A stretch of 64,000 nucleotides of DNA, from NCBI RefSeq assembly GCF_003024235.1, contig NZ_KZ679091.1:62001-126000 (forward strand). Reading direction: 5' to 3'. A program made the position numbers and the translations under genes. Positions 54,206-62,374 of this stretch are shown piece after piece (positions within the stretch are counted from its first letter, which is position 1; each line of letters starts with the position of its first letter). The notes beneath the pieces are model-generated. The model was not told the origin of the DNA and did no database searches. It was given only the letters and a program-made list of their open reading frames with translations. The DNA is from Arenimonas caeni. GTDB lineage: Bacteria > Pseudomonadota > Gammaproteobacteria > Xanthomonadales > Xanthomonadaceae.

Positions 54206-55720
<1,515 letters not shown>

Positions 55721-55833: not shown

Positions 55834-56883
55834 GTGAACGTATTGATCGTCGATGACCAGCCTTCGCAGCGGACCATGTTCCGCCACCTTCTCGAGGACA
55901 TCAGCCCGGAGGTGAAGGTCACCGACTTCGGCGATCCGGTCGAAGCCCTGCTGTGGTCGCAGCGCAGCTCGCCCGACCTGCTGCTGCTCGACTACCGCAT
56001 GCCCAAGCTCGACGGCCTGGAGTTCGCGCGCCGTTTCCGCCGGCCGCTGTCGCACCGCGACGTGCCGATCATCCTGATCACCGTGGTCGGCGACGAGCCG
56101 ATCCGCAATGCCGCGCTCGAGGCCGGCGTCATCGACTTCCTGGTCAAGCCGGTGCGCCCGCGCGAACTGCGCTCGCGCTGCCGCAACCTGCTGGCCCTGC
56201 GCCAGCAACAGCAGAACCTCAAGTCGCGCGCGCACGAGCTCGAGCGCCAGCTGCTGGCGCGCATGCACGAACTCGACGACCGCGAGCGCGAGCTGCTGCA
56301 GCGCCTGGCCAAGGCCACGGCGATGCACGACGGCGGCCCGATCGCCAGCCTCGACCGCCTGGGCCGTTATGCCGGCCTGATCGCCGAGGCGCTGGGCCTG
56401 TCCGAGGACGAAGTGCGCACTATCGAACTGGCCGCGCCACTGCGTGACATCGGCAAGCTGGCCATCTCCGACACCATCCTGCGCAAGCCGGGCCCGCTGG
56501 ACGCCGCCGAGCTGGCCGAGGTGCGGCGCCACCCGGAGCTGGGCCACGAACTGCTCTCCGGCAGCGGCAGCCGCTTCGTGCAGGTCGGCGCCACCATCGC
56601 CCTGGGCCACCAGGAGCGCTGGGACGGCAGCGGTTATCCGCACGGGCAGGCCGGCGAGGACATTCCGCTGCCGGCGCGCATCGCGGCGGTGGCCGACGTG
56701 CTCGACGCCATGACCTCGCCGCGCGCCTGGCGCCCCGCGCACACCTTCGCCGCGGCGATGGACTTCATCCGCTCGGCTTCCGGCACGCTGTTCGACCCGG
56801 CGGTCGTCTCGGCGGCGATGGCCCGCCGCGAGCGGCTCGAGGAAGTCTTCCGCATGGTCACCCCGGGGCAAGGCAGCGCCTGA
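55834..56883 (+). CDS. rpfG: RpfG-like response regulator with degenerate HD-GYP domain
   Basis: The 349-residue protein pairs an N-terminal receiver (residues 1-120; phospho-acceptor Asp53 in [13 protein letters not shown]) with an HD-GYP domain (about 150-340). In Xanthomonas RpfG turns over c-di-GMP when activated by RpfC. Here the HD pair reads R204-D205 (PLRDIGK) and the HHE reads H259-Q260-E261 ([12 protein letters not shown]). Two metal-ligand histidines are thus replaced, while GYP, the HPELGHELL histidine and VADVLDA Asp remain. The GTG at 55834 is chosen because GGGAG precedes it by 6 bases; a GTG at 55813 is the alternative. It is followed by rpfC after 37 bases. Confidence 0.9.
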
Positions 56884-56920: not shown

Positions 56921-59050
56921 ATGATCCGCGCCTTCGCCAACCGCCCCGACAGCGAGCACGGCCAGGCGCTGGTCCGGCTGGTCATCGCCGCGGTGCTGCT
57001 GGCCTACCTGGCCGGCCTGGCCTCGGGCGAGGTCGCCGGCGAGGAACTGCGGCTGAGCGTGCTGGTGCTGCTGGCCGAGACCCTGCTGGGCCTCGGGCTG
57101 GTCATCGCCATCGTCCTGCAGCCGGGGGTTTCGCACTTCCGGCGCGTGGTCGGCATGCTGGCCGACTACAGCACGCTCGCGGCCATGATGATCCTCAAGG
57201 GCGAGGTGCTGGCGCCGCTGTACGTGATCATCCTCTGGGTCACCGTGGGCAACGGCCTGCGCTATGGCACCGGCTACCTGTTCGCGGCCATGGGCCTGGC
57301 CGTGGCCACCTTCCTGGCGGTGATCCTCTCCACGCCCTACTGGCAGCAGAACAGCTATATCGCCTGGGGCCTGCTGGTCGGCCTGGTCGCGATCCCCGGC
57401 TACCTGATCAGCCTGCTGCGCGACCTGCGTCGCGCCGGCGAGGAGGCGCGGCGCGCGAACGCCGCCAAGAGCCGCTTCCTGGCCAACATGAGCCACGAGT
57501 TCCGTTCGCCGCTCAACGGCATCATCGGCATGGCGGAGCTGCTCTCGGGCACGCGCCTGTCGCCGGAGCAGCGCGAGGCCGCCGACGTCATCCAGACCTC
57601 GGCCCAGACCCTGCTGCTGCTGGTCGAGGACGTGCTCGACATTTCGGCCATCGAAGCCGGCAAGCTCAAGCGCCAGGACAGCGAGTTCTCGACGCGCGAG
57701 CTGGCCAGGCGCATCCGCACGATGCTCCAGCCGATGGCGGCCAACAAGAACCTGGACCTGCAGGTGGAGGTGCAGGAGGGCATCCCGGCGCGGCTGCGCG
57801 GCGACGCGCCGCACCTCGGGCAGATCCTGCTCAACCTCACGCACAACGCCATCAAGTTCACCGAGGTCGGCAGCGTGCGCCTGCTCTTCCAGCTGCGGGC
57901 GCTGCGCGACGGCAGGGCGGCGCTGCGCTTTTCCGTGCGCGACACCGGCATCGGCGTGCCCGATGCCGCCAAGGGCACGCTGTTCAAGGCCTTCGAGCAG
58001 GTCGATTCCGGGCCCACCCGGCGTTTCGGCGGCACGGGCCTGGGCACCACCATCGCCAAGACGCTCACCGAACTGCTGGGTGGCTCGATCGGCCTCGAGG
58101 ACAACCCCGGCGGCGGCACCCATTTCTGGGTCGACCTCGAACTCGAGGTGGTGCCGGGCGCCGAGGCGGGCAGCCCGGTGTCCTCCGAAGGCAAGGTCAT
58201 CAGCTTCGACGATCCCTTCGTGCGCCACCGCGCCCGGGTGCGGCCGATGCGGGTGCTCGTCGCCGACGACCAGCCGGCGAACCGGCTGGTGCTGCAGCGC
58301 CTGCTCGAACGCGCCGGCCACCAGCCGGTGTTCGCCGAGGATGGCGAGCAGGCGCTCGACCGGCTCGAGGCCGAAACCCTGGACGCGGCCATCGTCGACC
58401 TGCACATGCCGGGCGTGGACGGCCTGGAGGTGATCAAGCAGGCCCGGGTGATGCAGGCCGGCGGCGAGCGCACGCCGATCGTGGTGCTCAGCGCCGACGC
58501 CACCGTCGATGCCGTGCGCGACGCCGAGGCGGCGGGCGCGTACACCTTCCTCACCAAGCCGGTGGTGGCCTCGCGCCTGCTCGACACCCTGGCCGAGATC
58601 GCCGGTGGCGCCGGCGGCGAGGCGGCCGGCCTGCAGCGCAAGGAGCTGCTCCCGACGCTGCGCACCGACGTGCTCGAGGAACTGGCGGGCATGGGCCTGG
58701 GCAGCCAGTTCCTGCACGACTTCTCCGAACAGTGCCTGCGCGATGCCAGCCGCTGCCTGGCCGAGGCCGAACGTGCCGCGGCGCAGTCGCGCTGGGACGG
58801 CTTGCGCGAAGCCGCGCATGCGCTCAAGGGCGTGTCCGAAAACCTCGGTGCGCAGGCGCTGGTGTTGCGCAGCTCGGAGCTGATGCGCGCCAGCGATGCC
58901 GTGCTGGCCAAGGAGTGGCGGCGGCTGGTCGGCAACATCGGCACCCAGCTCGAGGGCACCGCGGCCCAGGTCCGCAGCGAAGTGGCGCGCATCTCGTCGC
59001 GCCCGGCGCAAGGCGAGACCGGCCGGCCCACGGACAACGAGTCCGGCTGA
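56921..59050 (+). CDS. rpfC: DSF sensor hybrid histidine kinase RpfC
   Basis: The 709-residue sensor perceives the fatty-acid signal DSF and phosphorylates RpfG. About five membrane helices fill residues 20-165. The kinase core has the H box [10 protein letters not shown] (His192), N box [13 protein letters not shown], and G boxes RDTGIGVP and [15 protein letters not shown] receiver domain (about 440-565; Asp493 in [11 protein letters not shown]) and an HPT domain (His633 in [13 protein letters not shown]) complete the phosphorelay. The same layout is known for Xanthomonas RpfC, whose receiver also binds RpfF to hold DSF synthesis low. No rpfH lies between it and rpfG. Confidence 0.95.
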
Positions 59051-59062
59051 GCCGCGCCGCCG

Positions 59063-59092
59063 GGATGGCCGCCCCTTGCCTGGCGGCCATCC
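59063..59092. terminator. Hairpin between convergent rpfC and rpfF
   Basis: GGATGGCCGCC (59063-59073) pairs perfectly with GGCGGCCATCC (59082-59092) around an 8-base loop. It fills the 51-base gap between the converging genes. There is no T-tract on either side, so it may act as a weak two-way terminator or an mRNA 3'-end stabiliser. Confidence 0.5.
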
Positions 59093-59101
59093 GGTCGTCG
59101 C

Positions 59102-59995
59102 TCAGATCACCTGGCGCAGCGGCGCGTCGCCGGCGACGCGGCGCTTCTGCGCCCGCACCAGCCGCTCCATGGTCTGCAGGCCGCGGTCGCCCAGGCGCAT
59201 GGCGGCGTCCACCCAGGTGGTGGTGACGCGCATCAGCTCGTCCAGGCTCACCGGGTTGCAGGTCATGCGCACGGTATTCATCGAGCGCAGCGCGTTGCCC
59301 ATGCGCTTGCGCCGGCGCACCAGCTCGCGGGCGGCCTGCAGGCCTTCGCCGCGCGGCACCAGGAAGTCCACCACGCCCATGCGGTGCAGTTCCTCGGCCG
59401 GATAGACATTGCCGTCGAGCATCATCCGCTCGGCCTGGGCCGGGGTGACGCGACGGGAGAGGAAGGTGTAGGCGCCCATGCCCGGGAACAGGTCGAACAG
59501 CACCTCCGGGAAGCCCATGCCGGTGCCTTCCTCGGCAATGATGGTGTGGCAGCACAGGGCCGCCTCGAAGCCGCCGCCCAGCGCATCGCCCTGGACCACG
59601 GCGATCGAGTGCACGCGGTCGTCGGCCAGGCGGGCGAAATGGAAGGCCACCGAGACGCAGAGCTGGGCATAGGCCAGCAGGCGGGCGCGGTCGCCGGTGC
59701 GGATCAGGCGCGAGAACAGCTCCAGGTCGCCGCCGAGGTTGAAGACGTCCGAATGCGAGGCCAGCACCAGGTGGCGGACCTCGTTGCCCGGGTCCCTGGC
59801 GTCGTTGGCGATGCGGTTGGCGACCTGGCGCTGGCACTCGCGCAGGTCGACGAGCAGTTGCTCGCTGAAGCAGGGGCGGTAGCCGGTGCCGACGTTGTGG
59901 TGCATGAAGCACCACTCGATGCCGGGCTCCGGCTCGGAGCGGTGGTCGACCAGGGTGAGGGCGGGTTCGCGGTTGATGCTCTCGACGACGGACAT
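59102..59995 (-). CDS. rpfF: DSF synthase RpfF (crotonase-fold thioesterase/dehydratase)
   Basis: The 297-residue enzyme makes the diffusible signal factor, a cis-2-unsaturated fatty acid, from 3-hydroxyacyl-ACP. Both catalytic glutamates of the family are present: E144 in GGGFEAALCCHT and E164 in GFPEVLFDLFPGMGAY (corresponding to E141 and E161 of Xanthomonas RpfF). Other shared stretches are HSDVFNLGGDLELF and RRVTPAQAERMMLDGNVYPAEEL. The ATG at 59995 has GGAG 8 bases upstream. It is convergent with rpfC, and a -10 TAGACT lies in the upstream spacer. Confidence 0.95.
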   Translation of the reverse strand: MSVVESINREPALTLVDHRSEPEPGIEWCFMHHNVGTGYRPCFSEQLLVDLRECQRQVANRIANDARDPGNEVRHLVLASHSDVFNLGGDLELFSRLIRTGDRARLLAYAQLCVSVAFHFARLADDRVHSIAVVQGDALGGGFEAALCCHTIIAEEGTGMGFPEVLFDLFPGMGAYTFLSRRVTPAQAERMMLDGNVYPAEELHRMGVVDFLVPRGEGLQAARELVRRRKRMGNALRSMNTVRMTCNPVSLDELMRVTTTWVDAAMRLGDRGLQTMERLVRAQKRRVAGDAPLRQVI

Positions 59996-60094
59996 GGCGG
60001 CTTCTCCAGGCAAGGGACGGTGTCCCTACACGTTCCGGATGCGGAGCGCAAGGGGTCCGGGGCAGTCTACACCCGGCAACACGTCCAAACGCCA

Positions 60095-60144: not shown

Positions 60145-61827
60145 TCAGGCCGCGGTCTTGGGGGCGTCGCGCAGCTCGCGGCGCAGGATCTTGCCGACGT
60201 TGGACTTGGGCAGCTCGGCGCGGAACTCGACGAAGCGCGGCTGCTTGTAGCCGGTGAGGTTGTCCTTGCAGAAGGCCTTGACCTGTTCGGCGGTCAGCGA
60301 CGGATCCTTCTTGACGATCACCACCTTCACGGCCTCGCCGGACTTGTCGTCCGGCACGCCGACCGCGGCGACCTCGAGCACGCCGGGCATCAGCGCGATG
60401 ACGTCCTCGACTTCGTTCGGGTACACGTTGAAGCCCGAGACGAGGATCATGTCCTTCTTGCGGTCGACGATGTAGAAGAAGCCCTTCTCGTCCATCTTGG
60501 CCATGTCGCCGGTGTGCAGCCAGCCCTCGGCGTCGAGCACCTTGGCGGTCTCCTCCGGGCGCTGCCAGTAGCCGGCCATCACCTGCGGGCCGCGGATGCA
60601 CAGCTCGCCGACTTCACCCACCGGCAGCATCCGCCCCTCGTCGTCCTTGACGCAGGCGTCGGTGGACGGGATGGGCAAGCCGATCGAGCCGTTGTACTCG
60701 GCCAGGTTCATCGGGTTGATGCAGGCGGCCGGCGAGGTTTCGGTCAGGCCATAGGCCTCGACCAGGGTGATGCCGGTGGCGGCCTTCCAGCGCTCGGCCA
60801 CCGCGCGCTGCACGGCCATGCCGCCGCCGAGGGTGAGGTGCAGGTTCGAGAAGTCGACCTTCTCGAAGCCGGGGGTGTTGAGCAGGCCGTTGAACAGGGT
60901 GTTGACGCCGGTGATGGCGGTGAACGGGATCTTCCTGAGCTCGGCGACGAAGCCCTTCATGTCGCGCGGGTTGGTGATCAGGTAGTTGAGGCCGCCGAAC
61001 TTCATGAAGACCAGGCAGTTCGCCGTGAGCGCGAAGATGTGGTACAGCGGCAGCGCGGTGATGATCACTTCCTTGCCCATGCTGGCGTTGGCGCCCAGCC
61101 AGGCCGAGGCCTGCTGCATGTTCGCCACCAAGTTGCGGTGGGTGAGCATGGCGCCCTTGGCCACGCCGGTGGTGCCGCCGGTGTACTGCAGGAAGGCGAT
61201 GTCCTGCGGCCGGATGTCGATGGCAGGCAGCGTCTTGCCGGCACCGAGGGCCAAGGCCTCGTTGAAGCGCAGGTGGCCGGGCAGGTCGTAGTCGGGCACC
61301 TGCTTCTTGACGTGGCGCAGCACGAAGTTGATCAGCGATCCCTTCGGGAAGCCCAGCATGTCGCCCACGCCGGTGACGATGACCTGCTTGAGCGGGGTGT
61401 CGGCGACGACGTCGGCGACCACGTGGGCGAAGTTCTCCAGCACCACGATGGCGCTGGCGCCGGAATCGACCAGCTGGTGGCGCAGTTCGCGCGCCGTGTA
61501 CATCGGGTTGGTGTTGACCACCGTCAGGCCGGCGCGCAGCGCGCCGAAGATGGCGACGGGGTACTGGAGCAGGTTGGGCATCATCAGGGCGACGCGGTCG
61601 CCCTTCTTGAGTTTGAGTTCGTGCAGCAGGTAGTTTGCGAACTGCGTGCTGAGGCGGTCGACCTGGTCGTAGGTGAGCTGCTTGCCGAAGTTGGCGAAGG
61701 CCGGGTTGTCGCGATAGGTGCGGCAGGCTTCCTCGAGCACCGAGACGATCGACGGATACTGCTCAAGGTCGACCTCCGGGCCGATGCCCGCAGGATAATT
61801 CGCCAGCCAAGGACGTTCGAAACCCAT
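60145..61827 (-). CDS. rpfB: Long-chain acyl-CoA ligase RpfB (FadD-like)
   Basis: The 560-residue AMP-forming ligase activates long-chain fatty acids with CoA. In Xanthomonas RpfB it also promotes turnover of DSF. The P-loop motif is YTGGTTGVAKGAMLTHRN, followed by the adenylate motifs GLTETSPA and GWLHTGDMAKMDEKG and the hinge DRKKDMILVSGFNVYPNEVE. The C-terminal Lys segment is SNVGKILRREL. Its N-terminus MGFERPWLANYPAGIGPEVDLEQY is FadD-typical. GAGGGG lies before the ATG at 61827. It sits 149 bases upstream of rpfF on the same strand, with a hairpin between. Confidence 0.95.
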   Translation of the reverse strand: MGFERPWLANYPAGIGPEVDLEQYPSIVSVLEEACRTYRDNPAFANFGKQLTYDQVDRLSTQFANYLLHELKLKKGDRVALMMPNLLQYPVAIFGALRAGLTVVNTNPMYTARELRHQLVDSGASAIVVLENFAHVVADVVADTPLKQVIVTGVGDMLGFPKGSLINFVLRHVKKQVPDYDLPGHLRFNEALALGAGKTLPAIDIRPQDIAFLQYTGGTTGVAKGAMLTHRNLVANMQQASAWLGANASMGKEVIITALPLYHIFALTANCLVFMKFGGLNYLITNPRDMKGFVAELRKIPFTAITGVNTLFNGLLNTPGFEKVDFSNLHLTLGGGMAVQRAVAERWKAATGITLVEAYGLTETSPAACINPMNLAEYNGSIGLPIPSTDACVKDDEGRMLPVGEVGELCIRGPQVMAGYWQRPEETAKVLDAEGWLHTGDMAKMDEKGFFYIVDRKKDMILVSGFNVYPNEVEDVIALMPGVLEVAAVGVPDDKSGEAVKVVIVKKDPSLTAEQVKAFCKDNLTGYKQPRFVEFRAELPKSNVGKILRRELRDAPKTAA

Positions 61828-62374
61828 GCCATTCCCCTCGGTTACCAATGCCATCCGACCCGCTGCGACGCACTCTCCATGCGGCGCGCGGAATTCGAGT
61901 ATTCGCTCGATTGGAGCATACCCCCACGGGTCAGGCAAGGCGCGCCGCGCGGGCTTTCGCGCGGTTTTCACGGTGCTGCTCCTGGCCGGGCTGGCGGTGG
62001 TCACCGGATGTGCCCGGACGCCACCCGAACAGGCCCTGCGCGAGACCATCGCCAGCATGCAGGCCGCCGCCGAGGCCCGCGACACCGAGGCGCTGGTCGG
62101 GCACCTGGCCGATGACTTCGGTGGGCCGGAGGGCATGGACCGGGACAGGTTCCGCCGCTACCTGGCGCTGATCTGGCTGCGAAACCGCGACGTCGGCGTC
62201 ACCCTCGGCCCGCTGGACGTCGAACTGATGGGCGACCGGGCGCGCGTTCGCTTCACCGCCGCCGCGCGCGGCGGCGAGGGCCTGCTGCCCGATCGCGCCG
62301 AGGTATACCAGGTCGAGACCGGCTGGCGCCTGGAAGGCGGCGACTGGAAACTCATCTCCGCCGACTGGCGCTGA
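61826..62374 (+). CDS. Probable lipoprotein of unknown function
   Basis: The frame encodes a lipobox signal, GKARRAGFRAVFTVLLLAGLAVVTGC, then a 125-residue domain ending GDWKLISADWR that looks like an NTF2/SnoaL-type cone (charged helices, then a strand pattern). The only ATG in frame is at 61826, sharing its CATG with the rpfB start codon on the other strand and giving about 60 residues before the lipobox. A GTG at 61973 would drop the basic N-region. The real start is thus uncertain. Confidence 0.6.
   Translation: MPFPSVTNAIRPAATHSPCGARNSSIRSIGAYPHGSGKARRAGFRAVFTVLLLAGLAVVTGCARTPPEQALRETIASMQAAAEARDTEALVGHLADDFGGPEGMDRDRFRRYLALIWLRNRDVGVTLGPLDVELMGDRARVRFTAAARGGEGLLPDRAEVYQVETGWRLEGGDWKLISADWR

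Follow-up and report, generated by a model that had tools for sequence, protein, structure and literature searches.

A degenerate HD-GYP metal centre in the RpfG protein of Arenimonas caeni: a candidate for DSF output by binding rather than hydrolysis

The rpfG gene and its locus

In the window, the whole stretch of 64,000 nucleotides of Arenimonas caeni DNA that was analysed (from contig 8 of the genome), rpfG occupies positions 55834..56883 of the forward strand as an open frame with a GTG start, and encodes a protein of 349 amino acids. The protein comprises a receiver domain (residues ~1–120), a helical linker (121–160) and an HD-GYP domain (~161–330). The phospho-acceptor of the receiver is D53 (codon 55990..55992, forward strand), and D53, T83 and K105 are present in all 21 sequences of the Arenimonas-type group described below. 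Upstream is lysS (54242..55720, forward strand, start approximate), a conserved neighbour of rpfG, and downstream is rpfC (56921..59050, forward strand), which encodes a hybrid kinase of 709 amino acids with five hydrophobic N-terminal segments, a HisKA domain (MSHEFR), a HATPase domain, a receiver (VDLHMP) and an Hpt domain (HALKG). Further on, both on the reverse strand, are rpfF (59102..60013) and the gene for an RpfB-like long-chain acyl-CoA ligase (60145..61830, start approximate, the longest open reading frame being 60145–62136; NF006442, 1038.9 bits against a cut-off of 1023). The product of rpfF has a DSF synthase-like enoyl-CoA hydratase fold (Pfam ECH_1, 1.1e-22) and contains both GGFEAA and FPEVLFD, which we take to be the regions of the two catalytic glutamates; the position of the gene is conserved in relatives. 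With these features of RpfC, RpfF and the RpfB-like ligase present, the DSF locus looks complete, as a first-pass annotation of the sequence had already held for RpfC and RpfF.

By its position, its domains and its place in the tree, the gene in the window is a genuine rpfG ortholog belonging to the DSF locus. A receiver with a phospho-acceptor aspartate is fused to an HD-GYP domain, and the gene has lysS on one side and rpfC on the other, with rpfF and rpfB close by; both flanking neighbours, lysS and rpfC, pass the thresholds in 93 of 104 loci (~4 kb each). A search of the whole genome (2.95 Mb, given as 100% complete) gave no second full-length rpfG match. AF2 predicts a confident HD-GYP fold, and the domain fold is also backed by VIA-align, where most rows beyond rank 3 match the receiver only. 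After masking of the ligand columns, the tree was built from 116 response regulators (quick search, SH-aLRT supports only, outgroup-rooted, with some long outgroup branches), leaving out PmGH, identical proteins, and L050, L051 and L060, which are the same records as L186, L180 and L145. In this tree, 109 RpfG sequences, including the window protein, stand apart from 7 outgroup sequences with a support of 100. These 109 sequences are made up of 88 core RpfG sequences and 21 Arenimonas-type sequences. The core set is not random, as it combines 82 family-wide loci (drawn from 248 genomes, out of 296, in which a match reached E <= 1e-45) with same-genus loci and loci from pattern searches.

Two divergent types of RpfC and RpfF occur among Arenimonas (loci L034–L046, compared with window positions 56921–60013). 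In the window type, identity is ~71–97% by domain for RpfC and 81–94% for RpfF; in the other type, found in L036–L039 and L044, it is ~39–63% for RpfC and 51–54% for RpfF. LysS, RpfB and the receiver of RpfG are conserved across both types, and the two types look like the result of an exchange of the rpfC–rpfF pair; a similar exchange has been proposed for the rpf-1 and rpf-2 variants of Stenotrophomonas (PMC4517397). In L045/L024, L051/L180 and L060/L145, only distant RpfC-like and RpfF-like matches (~28–37% identity over the best stretch) are found behind rpfG, with no RpfC match in L060 and with gene order and strands changed in L051, an apparent replacement of the sensor/synthase pair. Elsewhere, an intact-core RpfG (L199, G147:C1:2680234-2684256) adjoins rpfB; the 4 kb examined contain no match to rpfC, which makes it apparently an orphan RpfG. 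In small genomes placed in the same genus (G006, G022 and G025; loci L030–L033), no match at E <= 1e-50 exceeds 35% identity, and these are only HD-intact HD-GYP response regulators near RpfC-like kinase matches of ~29–35% identity.

Metal-ligand residues and nucleotide contacts of the HD-GYP domain

Alignment to PmGH (4mcw; numbered with an offset of 6 from the chain, in agreement with the ligands named in PMC4159591) revealed that four of the eight metal ligands of PmGH are replaced in the window RpfG: E185 by G168 and H189 by S172 (G168 to S172, 56335..56349), H221 by R204, and H277 by Q260. The remaining ligands are D205 (D222 in PmGH), H233 (H250), H259 (H276) and D288 (D305), and K225 of PmGH is also retained, as K208. 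Thus, the HD dyad reads RD (R204 D205, codons CGT GAC, 56443..56448) and the HHE motif reads HQE (H259 Q260 E261, codons CAC CAG GAG, 56608..56616), so that the HD dyad and HHE motif by which an active HD-GYP phosphodiesterase is recognised are both departed from; the GYP motif (G267 Y268 P269, 56632..56640) is kept, as it is in 109 of 109 RpfG sequences, and all of these positions are on the forward strand. The first-pass annotation had given the codons and coordinates of both changes exactly, and had placed R204 and Q260 on metal-ligand columns, where the alignment to PmGH indeed has H221 and H277 and the window protein has no intact histidine. The same annotation spoke of two replaced ligands, which is right for departures from canonical RpfG but falls short of the four out of eight counted against PmGH, and of a replaced HHE, in which only the second histidine has in fact changed while H259 stays.

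The RpfG of Xanthomonas campestris is described as having G at the E185 column and F at the H189 column, with a predicted binuclear centre (PMC4159591), and the core RpfG sequences mostly have G and Y/F at these two columns. E185 and H189 were therefore rejected as new losses, and the departures of the window protein from canonical RpfG are R204 and Q260. The second of these is found in 22 of the 109 RpfG sequences (15/88 core, 7/21 Arenimonas-type); the loci that came from the pattern search for relatives lean toward HQE, one of its six patterns being GHQERWDG. All 15 core sequences with H277Q keep HD and the other core residues, 13 in a Luteimonas-like GN..Q form and 2 as GY..Q, and the same combination of HQE and an otherwise intact core is seen in two Dyella HD-GYP proteins (L063 and L064). 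Across the class, the top-scoring loci of a Pfam HD_5 sample have HHE in 27 of 29 cases and HQE in none of 29. As HQE is found with an intact core in so many RpfG sequences, H277Q alone is a weak mark of inactivity, and the change of HHE to HQE was rejected as a sign, by itself, of lost activity. The HD and HHE changes had originally been weighed alike; the loss of HD remains telling, but that of HHE is not equally so.

H221R is likely the inactivating step, because alanine at the HD histidine nearly abolishes the activity of Lysobacter RpfG: in L. enzymogenes, the phosphodiesterase is left with almost no activity by either H190A or D191A (PMC8463545), alanine and not arginine being the substitution tested at this histidine in the cited work. 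In PmGH, H221A and H277A each essentially abolish activity (PMC4159591). Counting ligands is an imperfect guide, since activity is ascribed to canonical (X. campestris) RpfG, which has six of the eight PmGH ligands (PMC4159591). Judged from these residues, the phosphodiesterase activity of the window RpfG is very probably negligible, and the earlier suggestion of little or no activity would be a fair reading in the light of the Lysobacter mutant.

The c-di-GMP contacts that could be mapped from the canonical site of DvhD are kept at six of nine positions (five identical and one aromatic for aromatic). M293, R297, W299 and R300 (56710..56733, forward strand) occupy the columns of the DvhD contacts M646, R650, Y652 and R653, with R297 and R300 corresponding to R314 and K317 of PmGH, whereas Y523, K582 and E668 are I170, L227 and A315 in the window RpfG. 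R297 and Y268 remain as nucleotide contacts. RpfG need not be the sole route of c-di-GMP turnover, as the genome also contains 16 EAL and 38 GGDEF matches, together with a single HD-GYP protein in which HD, HHE and GYP are all present. A second HD-GYP protein of the genome (L084, G000:C1:178603-179073, reverse strand; DUF3391 and HD_5) reads LLDAG at the HD position and keeps HHE and GYP, which brings to two of three the HD-GYP proteins of this genome that have no HD histidine. There are also seven matches to cNMP-binding proteins, six of them over the cut-off, which give a lead to a Clp-like regulator.

Distribution of the changes and constraint among relatives

The first-pass annotation had raised the question of whether sister genomes share the two changes, and they do. 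R204 is common to Arenimonas sp. SCN 70-307 (L013/L034, a metagenome assembly) and A. donghaensis DSM 18148 (L014/L035, an isolate), encoded by CGT in the window and by CGC in the two other genomes; its presence in three genomes, with two codons and in one isolate, makes a sequencing error unlikely. Among the 14 Arenimonas sequences, R204 occurs in 3 and Q260 in 6, the latter being the R204 trio and L015–L017, which keep HD. In the tree, the R204 trio forms a clade (support 100), which is joined by the three other Q260 sequences (99), and these nest inside the 14 Arenimonas sequences (99); the wider Arenimonas-type group of 21 sequences has a weak support of 81.

Within those 21 sequences, the HD histidine has changed three times: to R in the window clade, to RG in L021/L024 and to N in L133. 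The loss of the HD histidine is thus one of three changes in the wider group and is not peculiar to the window genome. The fewest changes required on the whole tree are 3 for H221, 4 for K225 (one of which is in L065, an outgroup sequence), 3 for H250, and one each for D222, H276 and D305. In L026–L028, L132 and L134, HD is kept and K225 of the HD-x-G-K stretch is replaced by N, M or Q, so that K225 replacements are further routes by which the catalytic centre has changed. The six residues H221, D222, K225, H250, H276 and D305 are all intact in every core RpfG sequence (88 of 88) but in only 8 of the 21 Arenimonas-type sequences (Fisher p 8.7e-12, with related sequences treated as independent), and in 7 of the 14 Arenimonas sequences. 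GYP is kept in 21 of 21, and residues 2–120 of the receiver are identical to those of the window protein in 10 of the 13 other Arenimonas sequences, in keeping with the earlier view that the gene is not a pseudogene. One rpfG relative (L029, G024:C67:293-1315) has an in-frame TAA near its start, possibly as a pseudogene or through an assembly fault, and was left out of all ligand counts, having only 8 residues before the first stop. The type of RpfC was considered as a cause of the loss of HD and rejected: the R204 genomes carry the window type of RpfC, as do the HD-intact L040–L043 and L046, and L044, of the RG type, carries the other.

The receiver and the HD-GYP domain have evolved very differently. 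Mean identity among the 14 Arenimonas sequences is 99.0% for the receiver and 71.0% for the HD-GYP domain, and the ratio of nonsynonymous differences per site (pN) in the HD-GYP domain to that in the receiver is 33.7 in Arenimonas, whereas six other clades give 4.3, 3.0, 1.1, 0.7, 1.2 and 3.0 (the partial L172 and L185, which is identical to L184, were left out of their clades). Where HD-GYP identity is 60–65%, the receivers of core pairs have a mean identity of 79.6% (range 58.8–88.3; 29 pairs from a random 700, minus those with L172), whereas those of Arenimonas pairs have a mean of 99.1% (range 96.7–100; 28 pairs). In the 13 Arenimonas-group loci L034–L046, the receiver (96.7–100%) also exceeds LysS (79.9–93.1%) and RpfB (82.4–93.9%), 3 of the 26 LysS and RpfB comparisons being partial. 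Moreover, the receiver is kept in genomes in which RpfC is only ~39–63% identical by domain; a receiver conserved next to a far more variable RpfC suggests that its surface meets something more conserved than RpfC. Third-position difference at 4-fold sites is lower for the receiver than for the HD-GYP domain in Arenimonas (0.22 versus 0.31; 0.38 and 0.39 in core pairs, again without L172), and recombination or codon constraint could therefore explain part of the sameness of the receiver.

The HD-GYP domain is under looser constraint, with dN/dS values of 0.17–0.31 within the R204 trio (3 pairs) and 0.41–0.42 between the trio and its HQE sisters (2 pairs), compared with 0.05–0.10 for HD-intact Arenimonas (5 pairs) and 0.008–0.13 for the core (6 pairs); values are 0.15 for L021/L024 and 0.35 for L027/L028 (HD kept, K225N), and all 18 pairs, which are few and of uneven divergence, lie below 0.45. 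Residues invariant in the core (>=98%) are still invariant in the 21 Arenimonas-type sequences at 10 of 11 positions in the GYP loop, 13 of 37 elsewhere (p 0.0015) and 0 of 8 in the metal centre. Each metal-centre residue is lost in some of the 21 sequences and none is lost in most, so that mean retention over the sequences is 0.82 for metal-centre residues and 0.80 for other core-invariant residues. Thus, the catalytic centre has been released along with much of the HD-GYP domain, the GYP loop has been held, and the receiver is held more tightly than usual. As 7 of the 14 Arenimonas sequences have an intact core and the HD-GYP domain is loose across all 14, this relaxation is not confined to the lineages without HD.

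Proposed output of the locus and comparison with known systems

This Arenimonas lineage has probably given up the hydrolysis of c-di-GMP by RpfG. In the mechanism proposed here, RpfC would sense DSF and phosphorylate RpfG at D53, and the phosphorylated receiver would alter the binding of the HD-GYP domain to a partner (a hybrid kinase or a GGDEF protein like WspR), to c-di-GMP or to both, the output of RpfG being binding rather than hydrolysis. The window RpfG would then be a phosphodiesterase-dead, RpfC-switched adaptor and/or c-di-GMP receptor, and the comparisons described above make this mechanism, taken as a whole, reasonably probable. As the first-pass annotation had done, we infer that the DSF output is rewired in Arenimonas. 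The broader proposal, that the DSF regulator of Arenimonas and its near kin has repeatedly given up its role as an enzyme to become purely a phospho-switched adaptor or c-di-GMP receptor, with the receiver locked near-identical genus-wide and the metal centre lost in several independent ways, has perhaps a slightly better than even chance of being correct.

A residual or altered enzyme, in which the four remaining ligands would hold one or two metals and slowly cleave c-di-GMP (or pGpG), Gln260 would be tolerated and Arg204 would assist in binding phosphate, is unlikely. The E185A and D305A variants of PmGH have some activity left, and activity is also ascribed to X. campestris RpfG, which lacks two of the PmGH ligands (PMC4159591); H277Q may be tolerated, given the 15 core sequences that have it with the six residues intact; the nucleotide contacts R297 and Y268 remain; and the conservation of GYP could serve a residual enzyme function. 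Against such an enzyme are the alanine mutants already mentioned, H221A and H277A of PmGH (PMC4159591) and H190A of Lysobacter RpfG (PMC8463545), and the three changes of the HD histidine, accompanied in kin by changes at K225, D222, H250 and D305, which point to a relaxed catalytic need. The HD-GYP domain could instead be a passive remnant in decay, with only the receiver mattering, e.g., as a phosphate sink or as a partner of RpfC at the level of the receiver. The frozen receiver beside an HD-GYP domain free to change, and the keeping of that receiver even with the divergent type of RpfC, are in favour of this, and the relaxed constraint on the domain also fits decay toward no function. Such decay is nevertheless quite unlikely, as among the same-genus matches with 49% identity or more (own genome included) 17 of 18 have no internal stop, the GYP loop is almost unchanged, dN/dS of the HD-GYP domain is below 0.45 throughout and its AF2 fold is confident. 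As for an error of sequencing or assembly, or a paralog other than RpfG, nothing was found to favour it beyond the oddity itself; with R204 in three genomes, two codons and one isolate, with the lysS–rpfG–rpfC order around the sole full-length match of the genome, and with the R204 sequences forming a fully supported clade inside Arenimonas, it is barely credible.

If this broader proposal is true, DSF quorum sensing in Arenimonas and its near kin would run without the c-di-GMP hydrolysis that carries DSF output in Xanthomonas. RpfG is cited as the paradigm for HD-GYP proteins that are active (PMC4159591). Whether DSF output proceeds via the enzyme activity of RpfG or via its protein contacts is reported differently for Xanthomonas and Lysobacter (PMC9758175). 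Arenimonas is a natural comparison, as the same gene occupies the same locus in sister species that have the HD histidine, such as A. terrae and A. daejeonensis, and in species that do not, such as A. donghaensis, and their receivers differ little or not at all; this makes the question of enzyme versus contact testable without engineered mutants.

Degenerate HD-GYP proteins and hydrolysis-independent action of RpfG are both already known, and in the open-access literature searched no report was found of a naturally degenerate RpfG, or of one in a complete DSF locus with a frozen receiver and repeated loss among its kin. PmGH (4mcw) and PA4781 (4r8z) both have HD and HHE, unlike the window RpfG, and PmGH is described as enzymatically active and as having a trinuclear centre (PMC4159591). 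Bd1817 of Bdellovibrio resembles the proposed window RpfG in being described as an HD-GYP protein without phosphodiesterase activity, but has a di-iron centre and no GYP tyrosine, whereas the window RpfG has kept GYP and lost ligands (PMC4159591). DvhD of Desulfovibrio vulgaris (9rbz), which is described as having SQ in place of HD, with M and N replacing the two histidines, and as binding c-di-GMP free of metal without hydrolysis (PMC13090378), is a membrane-bound dCache-PAS-HD-GYP receptor rather than a response regulator; its loss of ligands is deeper than that of the window RpfG, in which three of its nine mapped contacts are absent.

The RpfG of L. enzymogenes is of the same family as the window RpfG and shares its architecture of receiver and HD-GYP domain. 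Its HD-GYP motif mutants produce more HSAF than the deletion strain, and the protein binds three hybrid kinases (PMC8463545); the H190A variant, whose activity is "significantly attenuated", remains a repressor of biofilm, and WspR, to whose GGDEF domain RpfG binds, is made less active by it independently of hydrolysis (PMC9758175). Mutants of GYP differ in effect, in that Lysobacter RpfG loses activity (PMC8463545) and PmGH largely does not (PMC4159591). The spacing between the HD histidine and the GYP tyrosine is 64 in Lysobacter (H190/Y254), as it is between the corresponding positions 204 and 268 of the window RpfG, L191 and L199, and H190 is presumed from this motif spacing (an offset of 14 in numbering) to be at the column of R204. 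The wild-type Lysobacter protein is described as an active phosphodiesterase, whereas the window RpfG has arginine at the presumed H190 column and glutamine at a second ligand. Thus, the window RpfG can be seen as a natural counterpart of the Lysobacter H190A mutant.
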